DNA from: Asticcacaulis endophyticus
Lineage (GTDB): Bacteria; Pseudomonadota; Alphaproteobacteria; Caulobacterales; Caulobacteraceae
DNA: 64,000 nt
Assembly: GCF_014652575.1 (NCBI RefSeq)
Contig: NZ_BMZB01000003.1
Location: forward strand, 1 to 64,000
Direction of reading: 5' to 3'
Position numbers and translations under genes: made by a program. Position 1 is the first letter of the stretch; each line of letters starts with the position of its first letter. Positions 831-41,112 of the stretch are shown here, piece by piece. The notes below the pieces were generated by a model that made no database searches, was not told the origin of the DNA, and was given only the letters and a program-made list of their open reading frames with translations.

Positions 831-3527
831 TTATTTAGCTACGGGCAGGGTAAAGATAAAGCTGGCGCCGGTGGGGGCATCGTCTTTTGGTGGGTTGTTC
901 TTGGCATAAATCATGCCGCCGTGGGCTTCAACGATACCTTTGCAGATGGCAAGGCCTAAGCCTGTGCCTGACCCATCGCGATCGGCCGCGGGTTTGCCGG
1001 AGTGGAATTTATCAAAGATGCGCGCTTCATCGCCGGGGATCAACCCTTCGCCGTCATCGCTGATGCGCACCCGCACCCGGTCGGCATCGGTCTCAAGGGT
1101 TATCGTGATCACGCCGTCATCACCCGTGTGGGCAATGGCGTTTTCGATCAGATTGATCAGCACCTGTTCGATCAGCGCGCCGTCGATTTGCACCATCGGC
1201 AACTGACCGCTGACCGTGGTGCGGATCTGGCGCGCGCCTTTTTGGGGTTCGACGCGGGCAATGGCCGCCCCGGCGATTTCCTGAATCAGATAGGGCTCAA
1301 GGTTCAGGTGCATCTGGCCCGACGTAATGGCCGCCATGCGCAGCAGATTGGTCACAAATTTCTGAAGCCGGGTCAGGTGGCTCCACAGGGAGGTCAGTTC
1401 CTCAACCGCTTCACGCGGCAGCTTTTTACGCATTTTGAGTAGGGACGACACCGATCCGTTCATGACGGTCAGCGGGGTTTTCAGGTCGTGCGATAACGAT
1501 GCCAGCAGGACATTGCGCAATCGTTCGTTCTCAGACTCTACGCGCGAGGTTTCGGCCAACTCGGCCTGACGGGCGCGTTGAAACGCCCCGGCGATCAGGC
1601 TGGCGACCGTCTCGAACACGAGCAGGTCAGCGCCGGTGAACTGTCGGTCATCGGCGCGGGGTGTGATCGACAGAACGCCCAGTGGGATGTTTTCCGCCAT
1701 GACGGGCAGATAAAGGCCGCTGGCTGATGGCAGTGTATCCGTATGACGGCCAGCGATGTGATGGTTTTGCATGACCCAATGCAGCACTCCAATTTCTTTG
1801 GCGCCGGTTTCTTTGGCATCTATCAAAGGCGCACCGGCGATCTGGCGCTCACCGGCCCACAGGCGGATATGGGCATCAAAGGCCGGCTGCAGGTGGCGTA
1901 CGACCACTTCGGCCATAGTATCGACGCCGCGCACCGCTGATAACTGCCGTGACAGGTCGTACAGCAGGCGCGTTTCAGCTTCGCCCTTGCGTGCCAGACG
2001 GGCGTGGCGGGACAACTGCGCCGTCAGTGATCCGACAATCAGCGACGTGATCAGCATGACCACAAACGTCACCGCATAGCTGACGTCATCAAAGGTGAAG
2101 GTGTAGTAGGGTTTGATGAAAAACCAGTTGAAGGCGGCGACCGACATGACCGAGGCCAGCACCGCCGGGCCGATGCTGAAACGCGCGGCGGTGATGACCA
2201 CCCCAATCAGGTACAGCATGATCAGGGTGTCAGGATCGGTCAGATTGCGGAACGGCAATCCCACCGCCGTGCAAGCGGCCACGATTGCCGTGGCCATCAG
2301 GTGATCGCGGGGGCGGGCGGCCCAGACTTCCCAGCCGGAGGTATCGTCGCGCGGGTTTTCTGCGGTTTCTGAATCAGCATTCAGCGTGGTGATTTCGAGG
2401 CCTGCGCCGCGCTCAATCAGCTTTTGCGACAGGGACGTAGCCCCCAACAGCCTGCGCCACCACGGCTGATGGCTGTGGCCAAGTACCAGACGGGTAAAGC
2501 CGTTCTGACGGGCATGGCTTAGGATCGCGGTGGCGGCACGGGCGGCATTCAGGCGCACCACGCGCCCGCCCAGTTTTTCAGTCAGCCTCAGATTATGCTC
2601 GACCCGCAGGCGCGCCTTGGGCGACAGGGTTTCATGGCGGTCGGTGTGCAGGTAAAGCGCCGACCATGGCGCGCGGGTGCGGTCGGCCATGCGCTTGGTG
2701 TGGCGGATCAGCCGAGACGACAGGGCGTCCGGCCCGACCAGCACAAGGATTTTATCGCCTGTAGGAGCTTCGTCGTGGCCTTGCGCGGCGCTTAGGGCAT
2801 CGTTCTGGGCGTCAACCCGCTCGGTCGTCCGGCGCAGGGCCAGTTCGCGCAGGCGGCCAAGATTGCTCTTTTTGAAGAAGTTTTCAGCGGCGCGGTGGTT
2901 GGCCCCTTCGGCCACATAGACCTTGCCGTCATGGAGGCGTTTGAGCAACTCATCGGGCGACAGGTCGATCAGGGCGATCTCATCGGCGGCATCAAAGGCC
3001 GCATCGGGCACGGTTTCCTTCACCCACACGCCGGTCAGGCGCGCAACCATATCGTTGAGGCTCTCCAGGTGTTGAACATTGAGCGTCGTATAGACATCAA
3101 TGCCGTGGTCGAGCAGTTCTTCGATGTCCTGCCAGCGCTTGGGGTGGCGGGAACCTGGCGCATTGGTGTGGGCATATTCATCGACCAGAATGAGGTCGGG
3201 GTGTTGGGTAAGCGCCGCATCGAGATCGAACTCATGCACCCTGACCCCGCGATGATCGATTTCGCGCAGAGGAAGAGTCGGCAGACCGTCGATCAGGGCT
3301 AAAGTCTCCGCCCGGCCATGATGCTCGGCCACGCCGATGATGACATTGCGGCCTTCATTATGAAGGCGGCGGGCCTCGGTCAGCATGGCAAAGGTCTTAC
3401 CCACCCCGGCGGAGGCACCAAAAAAGATTTTCAACCGCCCCCGGCGCTTACCGGACGCAGGCTCGCCCTCATCGGTGCGGATGAGGGCGAGGAGTTTATC
3501 GGGGTCGGGTCGGGTTATTTCAGGCAA
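831..3527 (-). CDS. kdpD: KdpD, potassium/turgor sensor histidine kinase
   Basis: Full-length sensor kinase of 898 residues. The N-terminal KdpD domain carries a Walker A motif GASAGVGKT at 37-45; a universal-stress-like domain covers about 255-380 (LVLGHSHQPWW); membrane helices of the DUF4118 type cover about 411-505; a GAF-like region follows to about 650; the HisKA motif SHDLKTPL places the phosphorylated His at about 680, and the ATPase domain ends the protein. It should phosphorylate KdpE. The start is unusual: it is a TTG directly preceded in frame by TAA, inside the last codons of the glycosylase-like gene (13-nt overlap). The residues after it (RPDPDKLL) match normal KdpD starts, so TTG is the likely start and translation is probably coupled to the upstream gene. 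Confidence 0.94.
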   Translation of the reverse strand: MPEITRPDPDKLLALIRTDEGEPASGKRRGRLKIFFGASAGVGKTFAMLTEARRLHNEGRNVIIGVAEHHGRAETLALIDGLPTLPLREIDHRGVRVHEFDLDAALTQHPDLILVDEYAHTNAPGSRHPKRWQDIEELLDHGIDVYTTLNVQHLESLNDMVARLTGVWVKETVPDAAFDAADEIALIDLSPDELLKRLHDGKVYVAEGANHRAAENFFKKSNLGRLRELALRRTTERVDAQNDALSAAQGHDEAPTGDKILVLVGPDALSSRLIRHTKRMADRTRAPWSALYLHTDRHETLSPKARLRVEHNLRLTEKLGGRVVRLNAARAATAILSHARQNGFTRLVLGHSHQPWWRRLLGATSLSQKLIERGAGLEITTLNADSETAENPRDDTSGWEVWAARPRDHLMATAIVAACTAVGLPFRNLTDPDTLIMLYLIGVVITAARFSIGPAVLASVMSVAAFNWFFIKPYYTFTFDDVSYAVTFVVMLITSLIVGSLTAQLSRHARLARKGEAETRLLYDLSRQLSAVRGVDTMAEVVVRHLQPAFDAHIRLWAGERQIAGAPLIDAKETGAKEIGVLHWVMQNHHIAGRHTDTLPSASGLYLPVMAENIPLGVLSITPRADDRQFTGADLLVFETVASLIAGAFQRARQAELAETSRVESENERLRNVLLASLSHDLKTPLTVMNGSVSSLLKMRKKLPREAVEELTSLWSHLTRLQKFVTNLLRMAAITSGQMHLNLEPYLIQEIAGAAIARVEPQKGARQIRTTVSGQLPMVQIDGALIEQVLINLIENAIAHTGDDGVITITLETDADRVRVRISDDGEGLIPGDEARIFDKFHSGKPAADRDGSGTGLGLAICKGIVEAHGGMIYAKNNPPKDDAPTGASFIFTLPVAK

Positions 3528-4171
3528 TTAAGGCCTGCATTGTTTTTAGCTTCAGACCATTTTGCGAAGTGCGATTCATCTGATCCTCTTGAGGGATGAG
3601 GAAAATTGTACAAAGGAATTGATTGGGCCAAACCAGTAGAGAGCATCATTTTGTACGGTACTCCCCCTAAGCAAACTATTGCCTTAAGGTTCGTCATTTT
3701 CTTAATTACGTAGCTTAAGACCTTCACAGAGCCTTCAAAGGCAGGGTGTCCTAACCGAAAGTCTTTCAATGGATCTGATGTTGTCCCATGCTTCAGAAAG
3801 AAGCAGGCGTTTGCATATAGAATTCCGCTAGCAGATGCGTTTGTCCCAAGTAAATCGGAACGATTTCGCCCCAGAAATTTTAGCAGTCTGGAGTTAGTGC
3901 GATACCCTGTCCGATACCGGCCATCACCGTCATTGTGGCGATATACTTTTTCTGCTGATAGGCCAATTGCTATAAGTGCTTCAACTTCATGTGCAGGAGC
4001 GAAATCTTGAGCGACGAGAAGTAGTTCACCTTTCCAGTCACCAAATAGCTGCTCAGTCCCGTAGACGGTTGGAGGATCAATACCCATCTCAAAAACATTT
4101 TTGTAATCTGGAGACGCTCGCAGTTCTTTGATCCATGGAGGAAACGGTCCGATCTGAATTAAATGTGTCAT
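3515..4171 (-). CDS. Uracil-DNA-glycosylase-superfamily-like protein inside the kdp operon
   Basis: 218 residues, not a Kdp subunit. Visible motifs resemble the UDG fold: VAQDF at 53-57 in the position of the GQDP/GEAP motif after a hydrophobic strand, LYANACFF at 118-125 like the Asn-containing strand, IVCLGG at 165-170, and FPHPSRG at 190-196 like the HPS loop. It is therefore called UDG-superfamily-like by motif only; whether it cuts uracil is unknown, and a canonical ung lies at 40.4 kb. It begins 18 nt after kdpC with a strong GGAGG site and overlaps the kdpD start. Base composition is clearly lower in GC than its neighbours (26 of 60 bases in 3541-3600), which suggests recent acquisition. 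Function in this context is not known. Confidence 0.7.
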   Translation of the reverse strand: MTHLIQIGPFPPWIKELRASPDYKNVFEMGIDPPTVYGTEQLFGDWKGELLLVAQDFAPAHEVEALIAIGLSAEKVYRHNDGDGRYRTGYRTNSRLLKFLGRNRSDLLGTNASASGILYANACFFLKHGTTSDPLKDFRLGHPAFEGSVKVLSYVIKKMTNLKAIVCLGGVPYKMMLSTGLAQSIPLYNFPHPSRGSDESHFAKWSEAKNNAGLNCLK

Positions 4172-4189
4172 TTGATCCTCCTTTTTCCA

Positions 4190-4756
4190 TTACTTAAATT
4201 TGCCATCCAGTCGGAGATTGACCTCTAGCACATTGACGCGGGCTTCGCCGAAAATTCCAAGCGTGGGGCCTTCGGTTGCAGCGTCGATGGCGGCGCGGAC
4301 TGTGGCGGCAGGCACGGCGCGGGTAGCGGCAATGCGGGGCACCTGTATCTCGGCGGCAGCGGGGCTGATGTGCGGATCGAGGCCGGAGCCAGACGCGGTG
4401 ATGAGATCGACCGGGACGGGGCCTTCAACCCCTAGCGCTGTTTTACGGGCGGTGGCGGCTTCATGCAGGGCCGGGTTGTTGACGCCGTAGTTGGAGCCGG
4501 AGGAGGCCCCGGCATTATAGGGCGTCTCAGCCGTGGCCGACAGTCGGCCCCACAGATATTCAGGCTTGGTGAAGTTCTGCCCGATCAGGCGTGAGCCGAT
4601 GACGGTGTCGCCTTCGCGGATCAGGGAGCCCTGCGCCTTGTCCGCAAAGGCAGTGCCTGAAATGGCGGTAACGGTGAGGGGGTAAACCCCGCCGAACAGA
4701 ACCGTGAACAGGCCAAGCGTCACTAAAGTCGGGCGGATATGGGAGGTGAATGACAT
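4190..4756 (-). CDS. kdpC: KdpC, K+-transporting ATPase subunit C
   Basis: 188 residues with one N-terminal membrane helix (LVTLGLFTVLFGGVYPLTV) and the typical KdpC body (GSRLIGQNFTKPEYLWGR, SGSNYGVNNPALH, VPVDLITASGSGLDPHISP, then a C-terminal RVNVLEVNLRLD). It stabilises the KdpFABC complex in the inner membrane and raises its affinity for ATP. AAGGA precedes the ATG. It follows kdpB by 10 nt. In most bacteria kdpD would come next; here the glycosylase-like gene intervenes. Confidence 0.95.
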   Translation of the reverse strand: MSFTSHIRPTLVTLGLFTVLFGGVYPLTVTAISGTAFADKAQGSLIREGDTVIGSRLIGQNFTKPEYLWGRLSATAETPYNAGASSGSNYGVNNPALHEAATARKTALGVEGPVPVDLITASGSGLDPHISPAAAEIQVPRIAATRAVPAATVRAAIDAATEGPTLGIFGEARVNVLEVNLRLDGKFK

Positions 4757-18800: not shown

Positions 18801-19934
18801 TCAAACCTTGATGATCCATTTTTTGCGGCGCAGGTAGTCCATGCACAGCCAGATGAAGGCGATGAACAAAATGACCGGGATCAGGGCGGCGGCGGCTTCG
18901 CCGATCAACGGTTTGGCCGCATGATAAGGCAGCAGCGTCAGTTGCCAGCCGACCATGCCCGCCGCCAGATCATGCAGCACATAGGCGGCGATGGCGTTAA
19001 TCCCAAAGGCCAGCGGAATGTTGACGAGGGCGGTGCCCGCCGCATTGGGTTTGGCGCCGGTATCAAGTGCCGCATGAAGTCCTGCCAGACAGATCGTGGT
19101 GATGCCGCAGGTGACCAGCACGAATGTGCTGGACCAGATGTCCTTGATTACCGGAAACACAAAGGCCCAGCCGATGCCGACTGCCAGCATGGCGACACCG
19201 GTGCCCAGCAACGGCAGGGCTGAGTTTTTGCCCTTACGGCCCAGCAGATATTCGCCAATGGCCACCCCGATCAAGCCATGCGCCAGTGCGGGCAGGGTGC
19301 CCAGAAGCCCTTCGGGGTCATAGCCTTCGGGGCCTTTAACATAGTTGTGGTTGCCTGCGCCGAACATAATCCGATCGACTGAGGCGACGAAATTATGGCC
19401 GCGCTGCCATATGTCGTTCGGCAGGCCATCAAGGGCGGGTGCCAGACTGAGCGGCCAGTAGAGCGCCAAAATGGCAACGGTAATGCCTATACGGACTTTT
19501 GGCCCGCACAGGAAAAACAGCACAGCGCATCCGCCGTAGACCAGACCGATGCGCTGAAGCACGCCCCAGAACCGCCAGGTTGTTTCCGACAGGGCCGAAA
19601 ACCACCACAGATTGGCCAGAATAAACCCGATCAGAAATAGCCGGAACGTGCGCCAGAAAATCTTGAGAGCCTGATCGCGGTTAAGGCCGCTCAATTGGCG
19701 CGCCCGATCAAGGGCCATGGGAATGGATACCCCGACCATCATCAGAAAGGCTGGAAACACGACATCGGCGATCATTAGCCCGTCCCAATGGGCATGCAGC
19801 AACAGCGGGTAAACCTCGGCATTCTGGCCGTACTTCATGCCGGCGGTGGCGTTGACCAGGATCATGCCCATGACGGTCAGCCCGCGCAGGACATCAAGCG
19901 AGATCAGGCGGGGCGGTTTTGCGGTATCGGTCAT
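18801..19934 (-). CDS. nagX: NagX-like multi-spanning membrane protein (DUF5009/HGSNAT-like)
   Basis: 377 residues with about ten membrane helices. The N-terminal RLISLDVLRGLTVMGMILVNA, HAHWDGLMIADVVFPAFLMMVGVSIPMAL and FLIGFILANL are the hallmark of COG4299, relatives of heparan-alpha-glucosaminide acetyltransferase. In chitin/GlcNAc utilisation loci of Shewanella and Xanthomonas this protein is called NagX and is thought to help GlcNAc or chito-oligosaccharides cross the inner membrane. The gene overlaps the hexosaminidase stop by 4 nt, so it is translated from the same message, which supports that role. Whether it is a transporter or an acyltransferase is unresolved. Confidence 0.8.
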   Translation of the reverse strand: MTDTAKPPRLISLDVLRGLTVMGMILVNATAGMKYGQNAEVYPLLLHAHWDGLMIADVVFPAFLMMVGVSIPMALDRARQLSGLNRDQALKIFWRTFRLFLIGFILANLWWFSALSETTWRFWGVLQRIGLVYGGCAVLFFLCGPKVRIGITVAILALYWPLSLAPALDGLPNDIWQRGHNFVASVDRIMFGAGNHNYVKGPEGYDPEGLLGTLPALAHGLIGVAIGEYLLGRKGKNSALPLLGTGVAMLAVGIGWAFVFPVIKDIWSSTFVLVTCGITTICLAGLHAALDTGAKPNAAGTALVNIPLAFGINAIAAYVLHDLAAGMVGWQLTLLPYHAAKPLIGEAAAALIPVILFIAFIWLCMDYLRRKKWIIKV

Positions 19935-22294
19935 GGCTGGCTATCCGAGGCGGGTTTGAGGGTAATCTGATCGATCGCAAAGACCGGATCAAGAGACGGA
20001 CGGGTAAATCCGATGCACAGGTCGTTGAGGCCTGATTGTGCGGGCACTGCGCCGGTAATGGTCGTCAGGCGCAGGTTGGTTATGATCGTGGAGGGCAAGG
20101 CTAAGGTGGCCAAGGTTTCGCCTTCGCAGGTCGGAGCATTACCGATGCGTTTGCGGATAAACATCTCGCCATAGGCTGTGGCGGGCGGCTCAAAACTGAC
20201 CTTGCGGCGGCCATTGACGGTCAGGAAGTTAAACGGCACCTGACCGACGATTGCGCGGATATTGAGGCCGTGGGACAAATCAACCTGCGGCCACAGCCAG
20301 CAGGATTGATAGACATTGACGGCAAACACGGCGCGGTCTTCGCCGGGCGCGTCGTCCTCAAGGTGATGGGGGAAGGGTTCGCCGCAGGTTTGTAACTGAT
20401 GGTTTTTCCGGGTGGCGACCGTATCGGCGGAAATGGTGTAGGTGCGTTCCCGGCCCAGAGGTGTGCCATTGATATAGGTCTGTGCCGTAATGTGGGCAGG
20501 CATATTCACATTCAGCGCTACGCCGTAAGGCGTTGGGGCCGTGCCATTCAGGCGATAGCGTATCTCACCGATTCCCAGATGATTGATCAGAGTGACCTTG
20601 GTGGTATCGCCTGCACGCTCAAACGCTATATCAGGCTCAAAGGGAATGGTGTCATAGGTCACCCCCAGCGCATTAAGTCGTTTCAGCGTAGCGGGAAGGG
20701 CAGCGCTGAACTGGCTCCAGTCGCGTTTGTCCTGTGGCGACCAGCCGACTTCGGACAGGGCGATCAGGCGCGGAAACACCATTGTCTCCACCTTACGGGC
20801 ATGGCGCATGTGCTCGGTCCAGACATTAGCCTGAACGCCGATGATGTGGGCTTCGCGCTCCGGCGTAATGCCATCGGGTGTGGAGTCGAAGTCATAGACA
20901 TCGCGCAGGCTTGCGATCCGTCCGCGGCCCGGAGGCTCATCCGGTGAGGCGCTTTGGGCGCTGTCGAGATAAAGCACGGGCTCCGGCGACAAAACCGTGT
21001 CGTGGCCCAGACTTGCGGCTGCGACGGCGCCATCAAGCCCGCGCCAACTCATGACCGTGGCATCAGGCGCCAGACCGCCTTCGAGGATTTCATCCCAGCC
21101 GATCATACGCCGTCCGCGTTTGGCAATATGCTGACCTATGCGGGTAATGAACCAGCTTTGTAGTTCGTCTTCGTCTTTCAGGCCCAGTTCTTTGATGCGC
21201 TGCTGGATATAGGGGCTGGCGCGCCACTGGTTCTTGATGGCTTCATCGCCGCCGATATGGATGTAATCGGAGGGGAACAGATCCATGACCTCATCCAGCA
21301 CATCGGTCAGAAACTGGAACGTCGCATCGTCTATATTAAAGAGATAGGGATAGACGCCCCATTTGTTCATACTCTCATTGGGCGATTGCCCGGTGACGCC
21401 AAATTCCGGGTAAGCATTGATGGCGGCCAGCGCATGACCGGGCATTTCAATTTCCGGCACAATAGTTATGTTGCGGGCTCTGGCATAGGCGAGCAGTTCG
21501 CGCACGTCATCCTGAGTATAAAAGCCGCCGTAGCGTAGCGGGCGACCTTTAGTGTCAAACCCTTGCGCCCCGGCAAGCTGGCGATAGGCCGAAGCCTTAG
21601 TTAGTTTGGGGTAGCGCTTGATCTCCAGCCGCCATGCCTGATCGTCAGTCAGGTGCCAGTGCAGGACATTGAGCTTATGGGCGGCCATGGCGTCGATCAG
21701 GCGGCGGATATCGGCGGGGCTCTGATAATGACGGGCCGAATCGAGCATCAATCCGCGCCAGCCATAGCGGGGCTGATCCCTTATAGTGAGGGCAGGCAGG
21801 GTCGGGTTCTGCTGGGCTAATTGCCATAAGGTCATGGCGCCGTAAAACAGCCCTTCGCGATGGGGGGCGGTTACGGTGATGCCGTCGCGGGTGATATCAA
21901 GCCTGTAGGCTTCGATAGCAGAGCTTTCGACGTCGCCGCGCTGAAAGCGAATAGCGGATGGGGTTTGAGAGGTGTTAACGAGCGTTAGGCGAACCCCGGT
22001 TGTCTGCATGAGCAGGGTTTGAAACTGCCGGGCGACACCATAGGCTTCTATATCATCGGCTGCGGTCGCTATGACCATGCCGGAAGCCAGCCGGAAGTGG
22101 CCGTCTCTGGTGGCGAGGTCAGCGGGTGCCGGCGTGATGTGAACCGCTTGCACAGCCTCAGCGCTGCGAGCCGAAGGCGCATATAATCCGGCAAATATCC
22201 CGCCAAGCAAAAGACCAAAGCCTATGGTCTTGCGGCATTGGTTTCTCGCCAGGGTGCTAATTGTGCCTTTTTGCTCGTTTTTAATTGCTACCAA
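19931..22294 (-). CDS. GH20 beta-N-acetylhexosaminidase
   Basis: 787 residues. A signal-like N-terminus (TIGFGLLLGGIFAGL to ARSAEA) suggests export. The GH20 N-domain (about 50-170) precedes the barrel with RGLMLDSARHY, LNVLHWHLTDDQAW, VPEIEMPGHA and the catalytic HIGGDEA (Asp350/Glu351 by my count). It releases terminal GlcNAc from chito-oligosaccharides; the extra C-terminal beta-domain is larger than in many relatives. The start is a TTG at 22294 with AAAGG 7 nt upstream; no ATG is available before residue 73. The start codon lies inside the inverted repeat AATTGGTAGCAATT, so a bound regulator there could also affect start-up. First gene of the operon with nagX. Confidence 0.88.
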   Translation of the reverse strand: MVAIKNEQKGTISTLARNQCRKTIGFGLLLGGIFAGLYAPSARSAEAVQAVHITPAPADLATRDGHFRLASGMVIATAADDIEAYGVARQFQTLLMQTTGVRLTLVNTSQTPSAIRFQRGDVESSAIEAYRLDITRDGITVTAPHREGLFYGAMTLWQLAQQNPTLPALTIRDQPRYGWRGLMLDSARHYQSPADIRRLIDAMAAHKLNVLHWHLTDDQAWRLEIKRYPKLTKASAYRQLAGAQGFDTKGRPLRYGGFYTQDDVRELLAYARARNITIVPEIEMPGHALAAINAYPEFGVTGQSPNESMNKWGVYPYLFNIDDATFQFLTDVLDEVMDLFPSDYIHIGGDEAIKNQWRASPYIQQRIKELGLKDEDELQSWFITRIGQHIAKRGRRMIGWDEILEGGLAPDATVMSWRGLDGAVAAASLGHDTVLSPEPVLYLDSAQSASPDEPPGRGRIASLRDVYDFDSTPDGITPEREAHIIGVQANVWTEHMRHARKVETMVFPRLIALSEVGWSPQDKRDWSQFSAALPATLKRLNALGVTYDTIPFEPDIAFERAGDTTKVTLINHLGIGEIRYRLNGTAPTPYGVALNVNMPAHITAQTYINGTPLGRERTYTISADTVATRKNHQLQTCGEPFPHHLEDDAPGEDRAVFAVNVYQSCWLWPQVDLSHGLNIRAIVGQVPFNFLTVNGRRKVSFEPPATAYGEMFIRKRIGNAPTCEGETLATLALPSTIITNLRLTTITGAVPAQSGLNDLCIGFTRPSLDPVFAIDQITLKPASDSQP

Positions 22295-26148: not shown

Positions 26149-27672
26149 ATGCATAAACTGAAAGTCGTCATTGTCGGGGGCGGAACATCGGGCTGGATGT
26201 GTGCGGCGGCCTTTGCCGGTGTCACGCGCCGGGAGCAGGTCGAGGTGCAACTGATCGAATCTGATGAGATCGGCACGGTCGGGGTCGGTGAGGCGACCTT
26301 GCCTCACATCAAGGATTTCAACGACTATATCGGCATCAATGAGGCCGAGTTTATGCGTAAGACCCAAGCCACGATCAAGCTAGGCATCGAGTTTGTCGAC
26401 TGGGGTAAGATCGGCAACCGCTATTTCCACCCGTTCGGAAAGTTCGGCGCGCCGATGGGGGCGACCGACTTTTTCCAGATGTGGCTGCGGGCCCGGGCTG
26501 AGGGCCTTGAGACGCCGCTTGAGGATTTTTGTTACGCCATAGTGGCCTCAAAGCAAAACCGGTTTGAATTTCCGTCGCGCGATGGCAATTCGGTCAAGGC
26601 GTCCTATGCCTATGCCTACCATTTCGATGCGTTTCTGTATGCGCGGTTCCTGCGGGAGTTTTCAGAAGCGCGCGGCATTGTGCGCATCGAGGGCAAAATC
26701 ACCGATGTGACGCTTAATCAGCATAGTGGTGATATCCGGTCGGTGACCTTGGCGTCAGGCGAGGTGGTCACGGGCGATCTGTTTATCGACTGTTCGGGGT
26801 TCAGGGGGCTGCTGATTTCCGGTGCGCTTAAGGTCGGTTATGAGGACTGGACGGGGTGGCTGCCGTGTGATCGGGCGGTGGCGGTGCCTTGTGACCGAAC
26901 CACAAACGAGATTACACCCTACACCCGCTCGACGGCGCGGGCTGCCGGCTGGCAATGGCGTATCCCGCTCCAGCACCGCACCGGCAATGGTTATGTCTAT
27001 TCCAGCCGGTTTATCTCGGACGATGAGGCCGCAGCTACACTAATGGCCAATCTGGACGGGGCCGCGCAGGCCGATCCGCGCCCCTTGCGCTTTACCGCGG
27101 GGCGGCGGGATAAGTGCTGGCATAAGAACTGTGTGACCATCGGTCTGGCCAGCGGATTCTTGGAGCCGCTGGAATCGACCAGCATCTATCTGGTGCAGAT
27201 GGCGATTACCTTCCTGTTGCGCCTGTTGCCCCGCGACCGCGTGATCGATCAGACTCTGGAAGATGAGTTTAACCGCCTGATCGATGTCGAATATGAGCGG
27301 GTGCGTGACTTCCTGATCCTGCACTATCATGCCAATACCCGCACCGACGCGCCGATGTGGCAATACTGCCGGGACATGGACATCCCCGACAGTCTGCGTG
27401 ACAAGATCGCCCGCTTTAAGCACCGCGGCTATATCCATGCCTATGCCGACGGTCTGTTTGCGCCGCCAAGTTGGCAGGCGGTGTTCTTTGGTCAGGATAT
27501 AACGCCGGAGCGCTATGATGCGCTGGCTGAGGCTATGGACCGCGAGGCGCTGATGACGCGGATGACGGATCTGCGCACGCTGATCCGTGAGGGCGTGGCC
27601 ACCATGCCGGGTCATGATGACTTTATCCGCAGCTATTGTGATGCCGGTAAGGCGATGGAGGCCGTGAGATGA
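26149..27672 (+). CDS. Flavin-dependent tryptophan-halogenase-family protein 1 (intact motifs)
   Basis: 507 residues. FAD-binding VIVGGGTSGW at 8-16, GVGEAT at 45-50, the conserved active-site Lys in KLGIEF (Lys77 by my count, position of Lys79 in PrnA), the family signature WQWRIP at 268-273 and FLEPLEST at 337-344 that includes the active-site Glu. The set needed for halogenation is complete. It uses reduced flavin, oxygen and halide; the real substrate of these carbohydrate-locus members is not known and need not be tryptophan. First of three overlapping genes, 153 nt after the receptor. GGTGAGGGCGGA precedes the ATG. Confidence 0.88.
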   Translation: MHKLKVVIVGGGTSGWMCAAAFAGVTRREQVEVQLIESDEIGTVGVGEATLPHIKDFNDYIGINEAEFMRKTQATIKLGIEFVDWGKIGNRYFHPFGKFGAPMGATDFFQMWLRARAEGLETPLEDFCYAIVASKQNRFEFPSRDGNSVKASYAYAYHFDAFLYARFLREFSEARGIVRIEGKITDVTLNQHSGDIRSVTLASGEVVTGDLFIDCSGFRGLLISGALKVGYEDWTGWLPCDRAVAVPCDRTTNEITPYTRSTARAAGWQWRIPLQHRTGNGYVYSSRFISDDEAAATLMANLDGAAQADPRPLRFTAGRRDKCWHKNCVTIGLASGFLEPLESTSIYLVQMAITFLLRLLPRDRVIDQTLEDEFNRLIDVEYERVRDFLILHYHANTRTDAPMWQYCRDMDIPDSLRDKIARFKHRGYIHAYADGLFAPPSWQAVFFGQDITPERYDALAEAMDREALMTRMTDLRTLIREGVATMPGHDDFIRSYCDAGKAMEAVR

Positions 27673-29177
27673 TTGCGTCGCCTGTGCCGCCTAAGCGGGT
27701 CGTTATCGTCGGCAGTGATATCGATGCCTGGCTGAGTGCCAATACGGTGCTTCGGGCGTTAGCGACCCACGGCGTTGAGGTCAGTGTGGTCGAGACCCGC
27801 TCGAACCTGACGCCTTCGGATGTGTGCGAGGCCCTGCCGGAGTTTCGTAAATTCATGCGGCTGCTGAACCTGCCCGAAGCGGCGGTACTGCAATCGGGAG
27901 CCGGAGCGTTCAGTCTGGGGCAGCGCTTTGCCAATTTTTCGGGCAAGGGCGCGTTCATGAACGCTTATGGACCAACGGGGCCCGTTTCCTTAAGCACCAA
28001 TTTCGTGCAGCATTGGGTGCGGGCGCGGCAGATGGGTCTGCCCGCTGAGTATGAAACCTTCAACCTCACCGCTATGGCGGCCCAGACCGGACATTTGCTA
28101 ATGCCTGCGCGGGCAGTGGCGGGCACGGCGCCGAGTGAATACGGCTATCATCTGATGGCGGCCGGATTGGCTTCGTTTCTGAAAGCCGCTGCCATGCGCC
28201 GTGGGGCCACGGTCTATGCCGGTGAGCATTTTGGGCTGAAACGGGCGCAAGACGGGGCTATCTCAGCGGTTTTGGCCAGCGATGGCACGGTCATCGAAGG
28301 GGATCTGTTTATCGACGCGACGGGCGCGCAGGGGCGGTTAATCGGCGCGCTTGAGACGGCGGATTTGGAAAGCTGGCGCGATCTTTACCCATGCAACCGG
28401 CTGCTGACGGCGGCGACGGGTGTGTTCCGGCCCTTGCCGCTCTATGCTCAGGTGTCGGCCAGCCGTCATGGCTGGTGGGGGCTGTACCCGCAACGAAGCC
28501 AGACCACGCTTCAGATGGCCTTTGATGGCGAACGGCTGAGTGATTATGAGGCGCTTGAGGCCGCCCGCAGCCTGTCGGGGCAGGCCCTGTCGGGGGCTAC
28601 GGTGCGGGACATGGCGCAGGGTATGCGCCCGCAGCCGTGGGTGAAAAACTGTCTGGCGGTGGGTGAAGCGGCGGCACGGTTTGACCCGCTGGACGCAGCA
28701 CCGCTACAGTCCCTTCAGATCGCGCTCAGTCATCTGGTGGCGCTCTATCCGGTGACGGCAGACATGGCGATTGAGCGCGAAATCTATAATGAAACCGTGT
28801 CCGATCATTACCGCCGCCTGCGTGATTATCAGTTGGTGCGCTATAGGCTTAACCGGCGTTTTGACGATCCGCTGTGGGACAGGGCGCGTGTCATGACGAC
28901 ACCCGACGCCCTGGCCTATAAGCTTAAGGTGTTTGAAGCGCGCGGCCTGATGGTGCGTTATGATCATGAAAGTTTCAATGAGGATAGCTGGCAGATGCTG
29001 GTTATCGGTCATGGCCTGATCCCGAAGTCCTATGATCCGCAGATCGACCATGCCGATGACGCCGCCACGATCCGCACCTTCCAGAACCATCTGGCATCCA
29101 TCAAGCAGCAGATCGGCATTATGACGCCCCACGAAGAGGCGCTGATGGCGGTGGTGCAGGCTACCGCAACAGCATGA
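27669..29177 (+). CDS. Halogenase-family paralogue without catalytic residues
   Basis: 502 residues, clearly related to its neighbours over the full length but changed at every key place: the dinucleotide motif is VIVGSDIDAW rather than VIVGGGTSGW; GEAT becomes CEALP; the active-site Lys is Ser (AFSLGQRF, position 82); the WQWRIP signature becomes GWWGLYP; the FLEPLEST region is FDPLDAA. It probably no longer halogenates. It has no frameshift, keeps good length and 4-nt overlaps on both sides, so it looks maintained as a protein, perhaps as a partner or binding subunit of the two intact ones. This is inference. Confidence 0.82.
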   Translation: MIASPVPPKRVVIVGSDIDAWLSANTVLRALATHGVEVSVVETRSNLTPSDVCEALPEFRKFMRLLNLPEAAVLQSGAGAFSLGQRFANFSGKGAFMNAYGPTGPVSLSTNFVQHWVRARQMGLPAEYETFNLTAMAAQTGHLLMPARAVAGTAPSEYGYHLMAAGLASFLKAAAMRRGATVYAGEHFGLKRAQDGAISAVLASDGTVIEGDLFIDATGAQGRLIGALETADLESWRDLYPCNRLLTAATGVFRPLPLYAQVSASRHGWWGLYPQRSQTTLQMAFDGERLSDYEALEAARSLSGQALSGATVRDMAQGMRPQPWVKNCLAVGEAAARFDPLDAAPLQSLQIALSHLVALYPVTADMAIEREIYNETVSDHYRRLRDYQLVRYRLNRRFDDPLWDRARVMTTPDALAYKLKVFEARGLMVRYDHESFNEDSWQMLVIGHGLIPKSYDPQIDHADDAATIRTFQNHLASIKQQIGIMTPHEEALMAVVQATATA

Positions 29178-30658
29178 TGGGGGTGCGTAAAACCGTTATT
29201 GTCGGCGGCGGAACCGCAGGCTGGATGGCGGCGGCGGCGATCGCGCGCGCCATTGGTACCGAACATCACGAGGTGTGCCTGATCGAGTCGGACGCGATTG
29301 GCACGGTTGGGGTGGGCGAGGCGACCATCCCGCCCATTCAGGATTTCAATGCCTTTCTGGGCATCGACGAAGACGACTTTATCCGTGAGACCAAGGCGAC
29401 GTTCAAACTGGGGATCGAGTTCATCAACTGGCGTGCGCCGGGTCACGCCTATTTCCATCCGTTTGGCGTCTATGGCCGCGATTTCGACGGTATACCCTTT
29501 CAGCACTTTATGCTCAGGGGATTGAAGGACGGCGTGGCCGCAGACTATGGGCTTTATAATCTGGAGACGATGGCGGCGCGGGCGGGGACATTTGCGCGCG
29601 CCGCCAAAGGACAGGCTGTCGGTTATGCCTATCATTTCGATGCGGGCCTATATGCCAATTACCTGCGCCGCTATGCCGAGAGGCGCGGGGTTAAACGGAT
29701 CGAAGGTGAAATTACCGATGTCGCGTTAAATCCCGATGACGGTTTTATCCGGTCGGTGACGCTGAAAAATGGCGCAGTGGTGACGGGCGATTTCTTTATC
29801 GACTGTTCCGGCTTTCGCGGGCTGCTGATCGAGCAGGCGCTGAAAGCCGGTTATGAGGACTGGTCGAAATGGCTGCCCGCTGACCGGGCGGTAGCGGTGC
29901 CGTGCGTGGCGCCTTCGGATCAGATTATACCCTATACCCGTTCAACGGCGCGCGACGCCGGATGGCAGTGGCGCATCCCGCTTCAACACCGGATCGGCAA
30001 TGGCTATGTGTTCTCCAGCGCGTTTATCTCAGAAACGGCCGCGACCGACACCCTGATGGCCAATCTGGACGGTGATGCTTTGGCTGAGCCGCGGGTGCTG
30101 AAGTTTGTCACCGGCCGTAGGCGCCGAAGCTGGGTCAAAAACTGCGTGGCGTTGGGGCTATCGAGCGGGTTTCTTGAGCCGCTGGAATCGACCAGTATTC
30201 ATCTGATCCATGCCGGTGTTATCCGGCTTTTGGGCATGTATCCCAAATCTGGTTTTGTGCCCGCTGCCATAGACCGTTTTAACCGGGAAATGGAAGTTGA
30301 CTACACCACCGTCAAGGACTTCCTGATTGCGCACTATCATGTGACTGAGCGCGACGACACGCCGTTCTGGGCCTATTGCCGCAACTATGAGATCCCCGAT
30401 AGCCTGAAAGCGCGACTGGAGCTTTACCAGTCGTGTGGGCAGGTCATGCCGACGGTGCTTGAGCTATTCAAGGACACCAACTGGTTTGCGATCCTGATGG
30501 GGCAGGGGCGGGTGCCCGATGATTATCACACCATCGCTGACCGACTGCCCGATGATGAACTGCGTCTGCGGCTGGATGAGGTCCGGCGGCATGTTGCGAT
30601 GAGATTGGCGGATCTGCCGCGTCACGCCGACTACATTGCCAAAATCATCACTCCTTAA
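29174..30658 (+). CDS. Flavin-dependent tryptophan-halogenase-family protein 2 (intact motifs)
   Basis: 494 residues, closest to the first halogenase of the operon. VIVGGGTAGW at 8-17, GVGEAT near 46-51, Lys in FKLGIEF (about 78), WQWRIP, and FLEPLEST are all kept. Same predicted chemistry with unknown substrate. It starts with ATGATG overlapping the stop of the middle gene. The 3' end overlaps the converging GH18 gene by 11 nt, so no terminator fits between them. Confidence 0.88.
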   Translation: MMGVRKTVIVGGGTAGWMAAAAIARAIGTEHHEVCLIESDAIGTVGVGEATIPPIQDFNAFLGIDEDDFIRETKATFKLGIEFINWRAPGHAYFHPFGVYGRDFDGIPFQHFMLRGLKDGVAADYGLYNLETMAARAGTFARAAKGQAVGYAYHFDAGLYANYLRRYAERRGVKRIEGEITDVALNPDDGFIRSVTLKNGAVVTGDFFIDCSGFRGLLIEQALKAGYEDWSKWLPADRAVAVPCVAPSDQIIPYTRSTARDAGWQWRIPLQHRIGNGYVFSSAFISETAATDTLMANLDGDALAEPRVLKFVTGRRRRSWVKNCVALGLSSGFLEPLESTSIHLIHAGVIRLLGMYPKSGFVPAAIDRFNREMEVDYTTVKDFLIAHYHVTERDDTPFWAYCRNYEIPDSLKARLELYQSCGQVMPTVLELFKDTNWFAILMGQGRVPDDYHTIADRLPDDELRLRLDEVRRHVAMRLADLPRHADYIAKIITP

Positions 30659-31675: not shown

Positions 31676-32064
31676 TTGTTTTATCCCCGATATTTATATC
31701 TGTGCTTGGTGGATGATGGCGTCAAAAGCTACACATTTGCAACATTCATTTTTTGAAAAATCGTCTAATTTAATATAATATATTGAAATTAATGCGTAAA
31801 AATGTGGGTGAGATGCGCGGAATAACAATGTGCAAAAAGAATATATCAAAATAAATACCAATATAGACCAAAAAATCATTTTTAGCTTGATATCAGCGTG
31901 AAAACGCGAAAGACTTCCCATCAGGCACGCCGCCGGACATGTCGGCGCGGTCTGATCTTAAAGGGCTTTCCTTCCCTCGGTAAGCCGACTTCCGGAGCGC
32001 GCCCGCTGTGGTATGGTCGCGGCGCGCTCCGTTTTTTACAGATTTGGGGCAACGGGAGCGGATC
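31671..32064. other. Divergent regulatory region between chitinase and chitobiase
   Basis: 394 nt without a gene. The left part (to about 31890) is strongly AT-rich and holds another half-site TACCAAT at 31856-31862. The right part is GC-rich and highly structured (see the leader element). A stretch of open minus-strand frame at 31694-31921 has no ribosome site or family and is rejected. Confidence 0.6.
31896..32037 (+). ncRNA. Structured leader of the chitobiase operon ending in a terminator-like hairpin
   Basis: Reading toward the chitobiase gene: a stem GCGT-GAAA-ACGC (31896-31907, GNRA-type loop); an arm ATCAG/CTGAT (31920-31924, 31952-31956) enclosing CGCCG/CGGCG (31928-31932, 31943-31947); then a perfect 10-bp stem GGAGCGCGCC (31994-32003) with GGCGCGCTCC (32021-32030) followed by GTTTTTT. 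The last element is a good intrinsic terminator 28 nt before the start codon. Either it ends a small RNA or it attenuates the operon. No known riboswitch family was recognised. Confidence 0.5.
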
Positions 32065-34629
32065 ATGAAAACATGGCTATTGGCAGGGGTTGCGGCGGCG
32101 CTGATGAGTGGGGCGGCGTGGGCGCAAGCCGCGCCTGTGAAGCTGTCGCAAGGTGAGTTGGATCGCTTCGCGGCCGACCTTGGCTACCGCTACACCATTC
32201 AGGACAATAAACCGGCCTGCCCGCAGGGTGGCAATGGCTGTTTCCTGTCTGAAATTGAGGTGCGTGTGCCGCAAACCCTGCCGGATGATCTGGCGGCAGG
32301 GAAGTTCACGCTTTATGCCAGTTTCGTCACGCGGTTGTTGGGCATCGAGAGCGATCAGTTTGATCTCAAATTCATCAACGGCGATCTTTATACCCTGACG
32401 CCAAAGCCCGGTGTGAAGCTCAAGGGCGGACAAACGATCAGGATTAAGGTTTGGGGCGAAGGGCAGTTTTATTCGGCCTATTACCCTATGCCCAATGTCT
32501 ATGCGGTGTCGGGCGGCCTGAAAGCGGCGACCATCGCGGCGACAAAGCCGGTTATCGATCCCGAAACCGGTCTTGAGAGTTTGGCGTTTGTGGCGCCGAT
32601 GACGGATGAGGCGAAACTTGGCACCAAACACGCTGATGACCTGACCCGGTGGCTGACGCCGGAGCGGGCGTTTGCGCAGAACGCGGCGCGGACAGTGGTG
32701 CAGGCCAAGCCTGAAATCGTCATCCTGCCGACCCCGGCCAAGGTCACCTGGCTTAAAGGGGCCGCGGTGGATCTGTCCGGCGGGGTAACGCTCGCCCTCA
32801 AGGGGGTGGATCATAGCGCGGTTCAGGTCGCGTTAGATGGCGTTAAAGACGCCGGGGTGGCGGGCTTTACGTCCGGCCCGAAAGTGATGGTAAAAGTTGA
32901 TGCCAAATCGGGTATCGCGGCGGAAGGTTATGGCTTAAGAGCTGAAAACGGAGCGATTACGATCACCGCTTCGGATGCCATAGGGGCGGCTTACGGCCTG
33001 ACCTCGCTGGCCCAGCAGGCGGCCCACGACAAAGCCAAGCTCAAGCCCGTCCTGATCGAAGATTCCCCGCGTCTGCCGTTCCGCGGTCTGCATGTCGATG
33101 TGGCGCGTAACTTCCATTCTAAGGCGGAAATGCTGAAAATCATCGACCAGATGGCGGCATATAAGCTGAATAAGCTGCATTTCCATCTGGGCGAAGACGA
33201 AGGCTGGCGGGTTGAGATCAAGGCGCTGCCGGAACTGGCGACGGTCGGCGGCACGCGCTGCCATGATCCGAAGGAAGACACCTGCCTTTTGCCGCAACTG
33301 GGGGCCGGGCCGGACGCCGACACCCCGGTCAATGGCTACTACAGTCAGGTCGATTACATAGAAATCCTTATGGCCGCCAAGGCACGCCATATCGAGGTCA
33401 TTCCGTCGTTCGATATGCCAGGCCATTCGCGCGCGGCGGTGCGCTCGATGGAGGCGCGTTATCGCCGCCTGATGGCTGAGGGCAAACCGGATGAGGCCAA
33501 TCTTTACCGGCTGGTCGAACCCGAAGACACCACGGTTTACGACAGCATTCAGCACTATAACGATAATACGCTCAATGTCTGTATCCCCGCGACCTACCGC
33601 TTTCTCGACACGGTGATTGATGAGGTCGCGGCCATGCACGCCGCCGCCGGTGTGCCACTCAAAAAATACCATATCGGCGCCGATGAAACGGCAGGGGCGT
33701 GGTCTCAGTCACCCGCCTGTCAAAAGCTGATGGCGACGGAAAAGCTGGAGCCCAAACAACTATCGGCCTATTTTATCGAAAAGGTCTCAAACCGTTTGGC
33801 CGAACGCGGTATCGAAGCGGCCGGCTGGAGCGACGGCATGGGCCATACCGATGCCGCCAAAATGCCCAAGGCCGTTCAGTCCAATATCTGGAGCGGCCTG
33901 TTTACGGGGGCGGCGGCTGAGGCCCATAACCACGCCAATCGCGGCTGGGATGTGGTGATTTCAATCCCCGACACCTTCTATTTCGATATCCCCCAAAGTG
34001 TTGATCCGATGGAGCGAGGCTACGACTGGCCGTCACGCGTGACCGATACTTATGAGGTGTTTGGCTTTATCCCGGAAAATATCCCGGCCAATGCCTCGTG
34101 GCTCAAGACTATTAGGCACCAACCCGGCAAGATCGACGATACGACCCCGCTTAAGGCCGGTTTGAAATTCAAGGGCCTGCAAGGGCAGTTGTGGTCGGAA
34201 ACTGTGCGCAGTGATGCCCAGGTCGATTATATGCTGTTTCCGCGCGTGCTGGGTCTGGCCGAGCGTGCGTGGCACAAGTCAGCGTGGGAACCGGCCTATA
34301 AGGCGGGCGAAACCTACACCTATGATGACGGCAAGGTTGATCGGGTAGCCCAAGCCAAAGACTGGCAGACCTTTCGCGATAAGATGCCGGTGCATTTGGC
34401 AGCCCTTGAGGCTGCCGGTGTCGAATACAGGATCGCGCCACCGGGCGCGCGGATCGTGGATGGCAAGCTGGAGGTCAACACCGAGTTCGCCCATCCGGTT
34501 GAATACCGTCTGGCAGGTGGGCAATGGCAGAGCTACACCGGGCCGGTCGCGGTTACGGGGGCGGTCGAAGTCCGGGCGCGGACGTTTGACGGCAAACGCG
34601 CCGGGCGCTCATCCAAGGTGGGGGAATAA
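32065..34629 (+). CDS. GH20 chitobiase/beta-hexosaminidase with CHB_HEX N-terminal domain
   Basis: 854 residues from the ATG at 32065 (GGGAG 8 nt upstream). Signal peptide LLAGVAAALMSGAAWAQA. Then an N-terminal carbohydrate-binding-like domain (about 30-190), a GH20b domain with YGLTSLAQQ, the catalytic barrel with PFRGLHVDVARNF, LNKLHFHLGEDEGWRVEI, SFDMPGHSRAA and YHIGADETAG (catalytic Asp-Glu pair), and a C-terminal immunoglobulin-like domain (TGAVEVRARTFDGKRAGRS). This order is the bacterial chitobiase architecture: it splits chitobiose to GlcNAc, in the periplasm. The second GH20 of the locus, different in type from the first. The GH16 gene follows after 1 nt. Confidence 0.92.
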   Translation: MKTWLLAGVAAALMSGAAWAQAAPVKLSQGELDRFAADLGYRYTIQDNKPACPQGGNGCFLSEIEVRVPQTLPDDLAAGKFTLYASFVTRLLGIESDQFDLKFINGDLYTLTPKPGVKLKGGQTIRIKVWGEGQFYSAYYPMPNVYAVSGGLKAATIAATKPVIDPETGLESLAFVAPMTDEAKLGTKHADDLTRWLTPERAFAQNAARTVVQAKPEIVILPTPAKVTWLKGAAVDLSGGVTLALKGVDHSAVQVALDGVKDAGVAGFTSGPKVMVKVDAKSGIAAEGYGLRAENGAITITASDAIGAAYGLTSLAQQAAHDKAKLKPVLIEDSPRLPFRGLHVDVARNFHSKAEMLKIIDQMAAYKLNKLHFHLGEDEGWRVEIKALPELATVGGTRCHDPKEDTCLLPQLGAGPDADTPVNGYYSQVDYIEILMAAKARHIEVIPSFDMPGHSRAAVRSMEARYRRLMAEGKPDEANLYRLVEPEDTTVYDSIQHYNDNTLNVCIPATYRFLDTVIDEVAAMHAAAGVPLKKYHIGADETAGAWSQSPACQKLMATEKLEPKQLSAYFIEKVSNRLAERGIEAAGWSDGMGHTDAAKMPKAVQSNIWSGLFTGAAAEAHNHANRGWDVVISIPDTFYFDIPQSVDPMERGYDWPSRVTDTYEVFGFIPENIPANASWLKTIRHQPGKIDDTTPLKAGLKFKGLQGQLWSETVRSDAQVDYMLFPRVLGLAERAWHKSAWEPAYKAGETYTYDDGKVDRVAQAKDWQTFRDKMPVHLAALEAAGVEYRIAPPGARIVDGKLEVNTEFAHPVEYRLAGGQWQSYTGPVAVTGAVEVRARTFDGKRAGRSSKVGE

Positions 34630-40372: not shown

Positions 40373-40428
40373 CTTGACCTTCGGATAAGAGTCACGGTGT
40401 TCTAACGTGCAAATTTGCGGAGGTGGCC

Positions 40429-41112
40429 GTGGCTGATATCGCCCTTGATGAGCAATGGAAATCTCCTCTGGATGCAGAGTTTTCGGCCCCTTATATGCAG
40501 GCGCTGAAAACCTTCCTGACGACTGAGAAGGCGGCGGGCAAACGGATATTCCCCAAGGGTTCGGAATATTTCGCAGCCCTCAATCTCACCCCGCTGGATC
40601 AGGTGCGGGTAGTGATTTTGGGGCAGGACCCCTACCACGGCGAAGGGCAGGCGCATGGCCTGTCATTTTCGGTGCGTCCGGGCGTAAAAACGCCGCCATC
40701 ACTGGTCAATATTTATAAGGAACTACAGGCCGATCTCGGCATCCCACCCGCTCGTCATGGGTTTCTGGAGCATTGGGCGAAGCAGGGCGTGCTGCTGCTG
40801 AATGCGGTGCTGACGGTTGAGATGGCGCAGGCCGCCTCCCATCAGGGCAAGGGATGGGAAAAGTTCACAGACGCCGTCATCCGGGCAGTCAATGACCTGC
40901 CGCATCCGGTGGTGTTCATTCTGTGGGGGGCATATGCACAGAAAAAAGCGGCCTTTGTGAACGCCGAAAAGCATCTGGTGATCAAATCGGCCCACCCGTC
41001 GCCACTGTCGGCCCACAACGGTTTTTTAGGCTCAAAGCCGTTTTCAAAAACCAATGATTTTCTTAATTCAAAAGGCCTCAACCCCATCGATTGGCAATTG
41101 CCAAACCTATAA
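40429..41112 (+). CDS. ung: Uracil-DNA glycosylase, family 1
   Basis: 227 residues. The GTG at 40429 is preferred because GGAGG ends 5 nt before it; the earlier GTG at 40423 overlaps that site. Motifs: [18 protein letters not shown] with the catalytic Asp, [24 protein letters not shown], and [11 protein letters not shown]. It removes uracil from DNA as the first step of base-excision repair in the cytoplasm. Complete and typical in length. A terminator follows directly. Confidence 0.96.

Follow-up and report, generated by a model that had tools for sequence, protein, structure and literature searches.

The window, that is, the entire 64,000-nucleotide stretch of Asticcacaulis endophyticus DNA analyzed here, carries on its minus strand a kdp operon with the gene order kdpA-kdpB-kdpC-(inserted gene)-kdpD-kdpE. 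The features of the kdpC-kdpD region are the following, G008 being one of the closest relatives described below.

831 to 3527, minus strand: kdpD, intact, 898 codons (context)
3515 to 4171, minus strand: inserted coding sequence for a protein resembling the uracil-DNA glycosylase (UDG) superfamily, 218 amino acids, ATG start
3516 to 4191, minus strand: inserted segment, 676 bp in place of 10 bp at the unoccupied kdpC-kdpD junction in G008 (blastn breakpoints)
3525 to 3527, minus strand: new TTG start codon of kdpD, giving a 13-nt overlap with the 3' end of the inserted coding sequence
4172 to 4191, minus strand: leader part of the insert, carrying the ribosome-binding site; AAGGAGGATCAA precedes the ATG
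4190 to 4756, minus strand: kdpC, intact (context)

An initial sequence-only reading of this region placed a gene between kdpC and kdpD, with a strong ribosome site of its own and a GC content (about 43 percent) below that of the flanks, and all three observations hold. The open reading frame occupies positions 3515-4171; GGAGG lies directly 5' of its ATG; and its GC content is 0.441 compared to 0.60-0.63 in kdpB, kdpC and kdpD, with a GC3 of 0.379 compared to 0.72 in these three genes. The insert consists of about 20 bp carrying the ribosome site, followed by the reading frame, and little else.

The kdpC-kdpD junction contains no gene in the three relatives with the most similar KdpD (G012, 97% identity; G013, 95%; G008, 93%), confirming the insertion. 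These relatives have only about 10 bp at this place, and in G012 and G013, the GTG start of kdpD overlaps the stop codon of kdpC. In the blastn alignment with G008, homology of the window ends at 4192 and restarts at 3515, so that 676 bp replace 10 bp. The inserted protein ends in GLNCLK, compared to GLNWIAIA in a homolog, and its stop codon is located at the junction itself, suggesting that the gene was truncated at its 3' end there on arrival. The frame of kdpD is kept, and this gene is otherwise intact apart from its new start: the GTG of the relatives is lost, and the TTG is now inside the 3' end of the inserted gene (3515-3527), so that translation of kdpD may be coupled to that of the inserted gene. 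Because no sigma-70-like promoter was seen in the region 3300-4500, the kdp mRNA is the likeliest source of expression. A search of the junctions for terminal inverted repeats or a target duplication gave nothing convincing, and no transposase or integrase was recognized among the open reading frames of the window.

Two observations in the surrounding material are recorded separately. The kdpD gene of G012 (L008) is matched as two overlapping pieces with a TGA, which suggests a frameshift near codon 830-840. Elsewhere in the window, a TonB-dependent-receptor-like gene is followed by three tandem tryptophan-halogenase-like genes (26149-30658), with two beta-hexosaminidase-like genes nearby (19931-22294 and 32008-34629; all names assigned by eye); this region looks like an amino-sugar utilization locus.

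Only two homologs of the inserted gene were found: one in Asticcacaulis sp. AC402 (56% identity; L035:8001-8714, contig NZ_AWGC01000018.1, genome G009) and one in the Hyphomonadaceae metagenome-assembled genome UBA2389 (31% identity; L036:7992-8666). No further convincing homologs were detected in the sampled genomes of the order (398), the phylum (398), the class (385) and the UBA2389 family (60), pattern scans of genome and viral contigs yielded no additional family member, and pattern scans and tblastn detected none by sequence in IMG/VR or in the phage and plasmid collections. Matches in L004 and L037/L038 were rejected as weak and partial, lying inside long unrelated frames, and a match in Mycobacterium phage RagingRooster (E 0.1), antisense to annotated genes, was rejected as chance. 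With only two homologs in these samples and empty kdp junctions in the close relatives, the gene is not an ancient member occupying the same place in most Caulobacterales.

The three homologs occupy three different, lineage-specific addresses. In AC402, the UDG-like gene lies 3' of a same-strand gene whose homologs in G006 and G007 are 94% and 91% identical, respectively; in G006 and G007, about 1 kb of unrelated content separates this gene from a MarR-like gene (named by eye), and in AC402, the UDG-like gene replaces that segment, with homology restarting at the stop codon of the MarR-like gene. In UBA2389, the UDG-like gene begins 4 bp after an SDR-like gene (named by eye); homology to all 11 congeners stops at or just before the stop codon of the latter, and both the UDG-like gene and the gene next to it are absent from that site in these 11 genomes. 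A small Doc/Fic-like protein (identified by eye) is encoded in AC402 about 1.6 kb from the UDG-like homolog (L035:10281-10664). In each of the three genomes, the gene immediately 5' of the UDG-like gene is on the same strand, and homology to relatives breaks off at its stop codon or right beside it (L036:7987-8708, L002:1452-2228). This shared pattern, with three cases, may reflect selection for harmless sites or hint at how the gene moves.

The window and AC402 copies differ at synonymous sites to saturation (pS 0.81) but far less at nonsynonymous sites (pN 0.29). The protein has thus been under purifying selection since the two copies split, with selection before and after the transfer being inseparable in this comparison. 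The existence of a 56%-identical homolog diverged in this manner indicates that the reading frame is more than a chance one and that the inserted gene is real and probably functional.

Neither the protein nor its homologs had a meaningful match in Pfam, NCBIfam, PHROGs, PADLOC or PDB sequences, and none of the three members is recognized by the UDG profiles of Pfam and NCBIfam; for PF03167 (curated cut-off 24.3 bits), hmmscan reported no match to the window protein at E up to 10. A six-frame search of the genome with PF03167 likewise did not find the inserted gene but found two other UDGs, namely, a canonical family 1 ung at 40423-41112 of the window and a second PF03167 protein (G000:C3:162412-162861). 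The presence of these two genes agrees with the initial view that a normal ung is also encoded in the window and that the inserted gene is not the housekeeping enzyme.

The UDG-like nature of the protein, proposed from its motifs, was examined by structure prediction and profile comparison. Because the underlying alignment is shallow, with three sequences only, the AlphaFold models are weak (pLDDT 50.3 and pTM 0.59 for the window protein; 57.1 and 0.62 for the UBA2389 protein). Nevertheless, all Foldseek matches to PDB structures below 1e-3 belong to the UDG superfamily: 13 of 13 for the window model are UDGs, including BdiUNG (2.8e-5) and SMUG1 (6.5e-5), and 35 of 35 for the UBA2389 model are family 4 UDG, UdgX or TDG. 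VIA comparisons yielded Z 11.2 over 188 residues (rmsd 3.9) for the window model with SMUG1, and Z 11.2 over 158 residues (rmsd 3.8) for the UBA2389 model with family 4 UDG. Among viral proteins, the top fold match (E 1.5e-6) was UDG-like and came from an uncultured Caudovirales phage; no Brig3 structure was among the fold matches, which excludes nothing. Independently of the models, hhalign against a pooled UDG alignment gave P 1.6e-4 with a probability of 50%, and the score with the combined family 4 and family 5-like profile was reached by none of 100 column-shuffled controls. Only the pooled profiles were informative, the single-family comparisons (family 1, family 5-like and small family) being short or near shuffle noise. 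Taken with this profile-profile comparison, the two low-confidence models support a UDG alpha/beta fold in the inserted protein.

The putative active site is encoded by three codons.

4004 to 4006, minus strand: codon for D56, proposed water-activating Asp in the motif AQDFAP, invariant in all three homologs, assigned by analogy with Ung D64
3809 to 3811, minus strand: codon for N121, proposed base-reading Asn, invariant in all three homologs
3596 to 3598, minus strand: codon for H192 of the HPS loop, proposed stabilizer of the leaving base, gap-shifted in the most distant homolog

D56 directly follows a predicted strand (50-54) and was matched to Ung D64 by eye. N121 is located on the predicted strand 117-121, and hhalign places it on the base-reading Asn of families 4 and 5. 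In the hhalign register with the pooled UDG alignment, H192 falls on the histidine of the HP motif; it is present in the window protein and in AC402, whereas the histidine of UBA2389 aligns only with a small gap, so that H192 is a probable rather than an assured member of the catalytic set. The HPS motif itself had been correctly noticed in the sequence-only reading, with residue numbers 191-193 that should be 192-194. The motif I, AQDFAP, differs from that of all families compared. In Ung, motif I is GQDPYH, where the Tyr excludes thymine; the position of this Tyr, two residues past D56, is occupied by A58 in the window protein, suggesting by analogy that 5-substituted uracils may be accepted.

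Given these observations, we consider it somewhat probable that the inserted gene encodes a divergent, rare glycosylase of the UDG superfamily that was horizontally acquired, probably acts on uracil-type bases, and is read from the kdp mRNA. Under this explanation, a single foreign gene would have landed after the stop codon of kdpC and before the start of kdpD. Its translation from the kdp mRNA would rely on the strong ribosome site in its leader, and kdpD would restart at the overlapping TTG. The protein would flip a base out of DNA and cleave the glycosidic bond by hydrolysis, which creates an abasic site. In this scheme, water activation would fall to D56 (the part played by D64 in Ung), reading of the uracil-type base to N121 and stabilization of the leaving base to H192. 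The protein would most likely work as a water-activating, monofunctional DNA glycosylase and remove uracil or a 5-substituted uracil. Because two further UDGs are encoded by the host, the role of such an enzyme would be either auxiliary repair of other damaged bases or defense against base-modified phage DNA, that is, restriction of modified foreign DNA, and we lean slightly toward repair. The low pLDDT of both models (50 and 57), the failure of Pfam and NCBIfam profiles to recognize a UDG, the shifted H192, the three-sequence alignment and the two other UDGs of the host all count against this explanation.

A special case of this explanation, which we regard as possible but tentative, is a phage-defense glycosylase resembling Brig1 and Brig3, which would remove a modified base from invading phage DNA and halt replication at the abasic sites left behind. 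Brig1, too, is rare, has the UDG fold and is annotated as hypothetical; it excises alpha-glucosyl-hmC from T4 DNA and requires E147 for base reading (PMC11078745), whereas Brig3 excises 5hmC and requires D127 and E55 (PMC13160076). A single gene that is rare, patchily distributed and horizontally mobile, in hosts already equipped with repair UDGs, fits such a role, as do the UDG-like phage protein that is the best viral fold match and the inclusion of a UDG domain among the predicted, unvalidated defense systems of DefensePredictor (PMC13092281). However, PADLOC, with a library older than Brig1, gave no match, no defense neighbors were recognized in the window, and the base-reading position is an invariant Asn, which fits uracil-type bases, unlike the acidic residues that serve Brig1 and Brig3 in reading cytosine-type bases. 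We consider it unlikely, though worth stating, that the gene represents a new subfamily of phage-defense base-excision enzymes directed at a modified base of the uracil type, spreading as no more than a reading frame and a ribosome site into ordinary chromosomal operons outside defense islands and borrowing the promoter of the host operon.

Three further readings were weighed. If the gene were a neutral passenger that has been decaying since it landed by chance in a permissive gap, its foreign composition and the altered last residues left by the cut at the junction would be accounted for, but the intact frame, the strong ribosome site and the low pN/pS since the split from AC402, even if selection before transfer contributed to the latter, make this quite unlikely. 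That the protein is a UDG relative without activity, or one that only binds DNA in the manner of a UdgX-like trap, appears less plausible still: UdgX structures are among the fold matches and the motif AQDFAP is unlike that of any family compared, but all three homologs share D56 and N121, with H192 as a probable third residue, and the cross-linking histidine of UdgX (H109 in PDB titles) has no mappable position on models this weak. Finally, the notion of a K+-linked DNA enzyme forming a functional part of the Kdp system, which the sequence-only reading had entertained, draws on the position inside the operon only and was rejected as scarcely credible. The closest homolog lies in a genome that lacks a kdp operon, that of AC402 (best KdpB match 30%), the KdpB of UBA2389 is encoded on a contig other than that of the UDG-like gene, and the kdp junctions are empty in all close relatives examined. 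These facts, together with the three different addresses, indicate that the UDG-like gene is a wandering single gene for which kdp is only a landing site; the alternative suggestion of a cargo gene using a safe operon fits the data.

Returning to the favored explanation, the protein would belong to a very rare branch of the UDG superfamily, invisible to profiles and marked by its unusual motif I and by active-site residues that favor uracil-type bases. It would represent a divergent new subfamily within a known superfamily of enzymes, and the horizontal insertion is of an ordinary kind. If it is a defense enzyme, base-excision immunity would also be hidden as single genes in metabolic operons, where searches based on defense islands miss it. 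If its role is only in repair, the locus is a clean case of a promoterless gene entering an operon without breaking its neighbors.

Among the known enzymes, the best fold match of the window protein is SMUG1 (family 3; PDB 5h93/5h98 from Geobacter metallireducens and 1oe4 from Xenopus), which has a similar length and order of elements. The two share 14% identity without a sequence-profile match; motif I of SMUG1 is GMNPG, and in the window protein, D56 replaces the Asn and the G-rich motif is absent. Family 4 UDG and UdgX (PDB 4zbx, 2d3y and 6ajo) are the best fold match of the UBA2389 homolog, and the profile comparison aligns N121 and H192 with the same motifs; the window protein, however, lacks GEAPG and the four-cysteine Fe-S set, having few cysteines, and does not match PF03167. 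With family 1 Ung, the window protein has in common the QD of motif I (AQDFAP beside GQDPYH, by eye), where the D is kept and P-Y is changed to F-A, without a significant sequence match or single-family profile match. BdiUNG of Bradyrhizobium diazoefficiens (PDB 5gn2), also alphaproteobacterial, gives the lowest Foldseek E value for the window protein, at 17% identity, but is longer (272 residues) and yields no phmmer match.

The resemblance to Brig1 and Brig3, compared here by description only, consists in the UDG fold, the rarity, the horizontal spread and the presence in bacteria with other UDGs (PMC11078745, PMC13160076). These enzymes are often encoded in defense islands and read a cytosine-type base with Glu or Asp, whereas the gene described here is a lone one in a metabolic operon and encodes an invariant Asn, N121, which is the likely equivalent of Brig1 E147 and of Brig3 D127 and E55.
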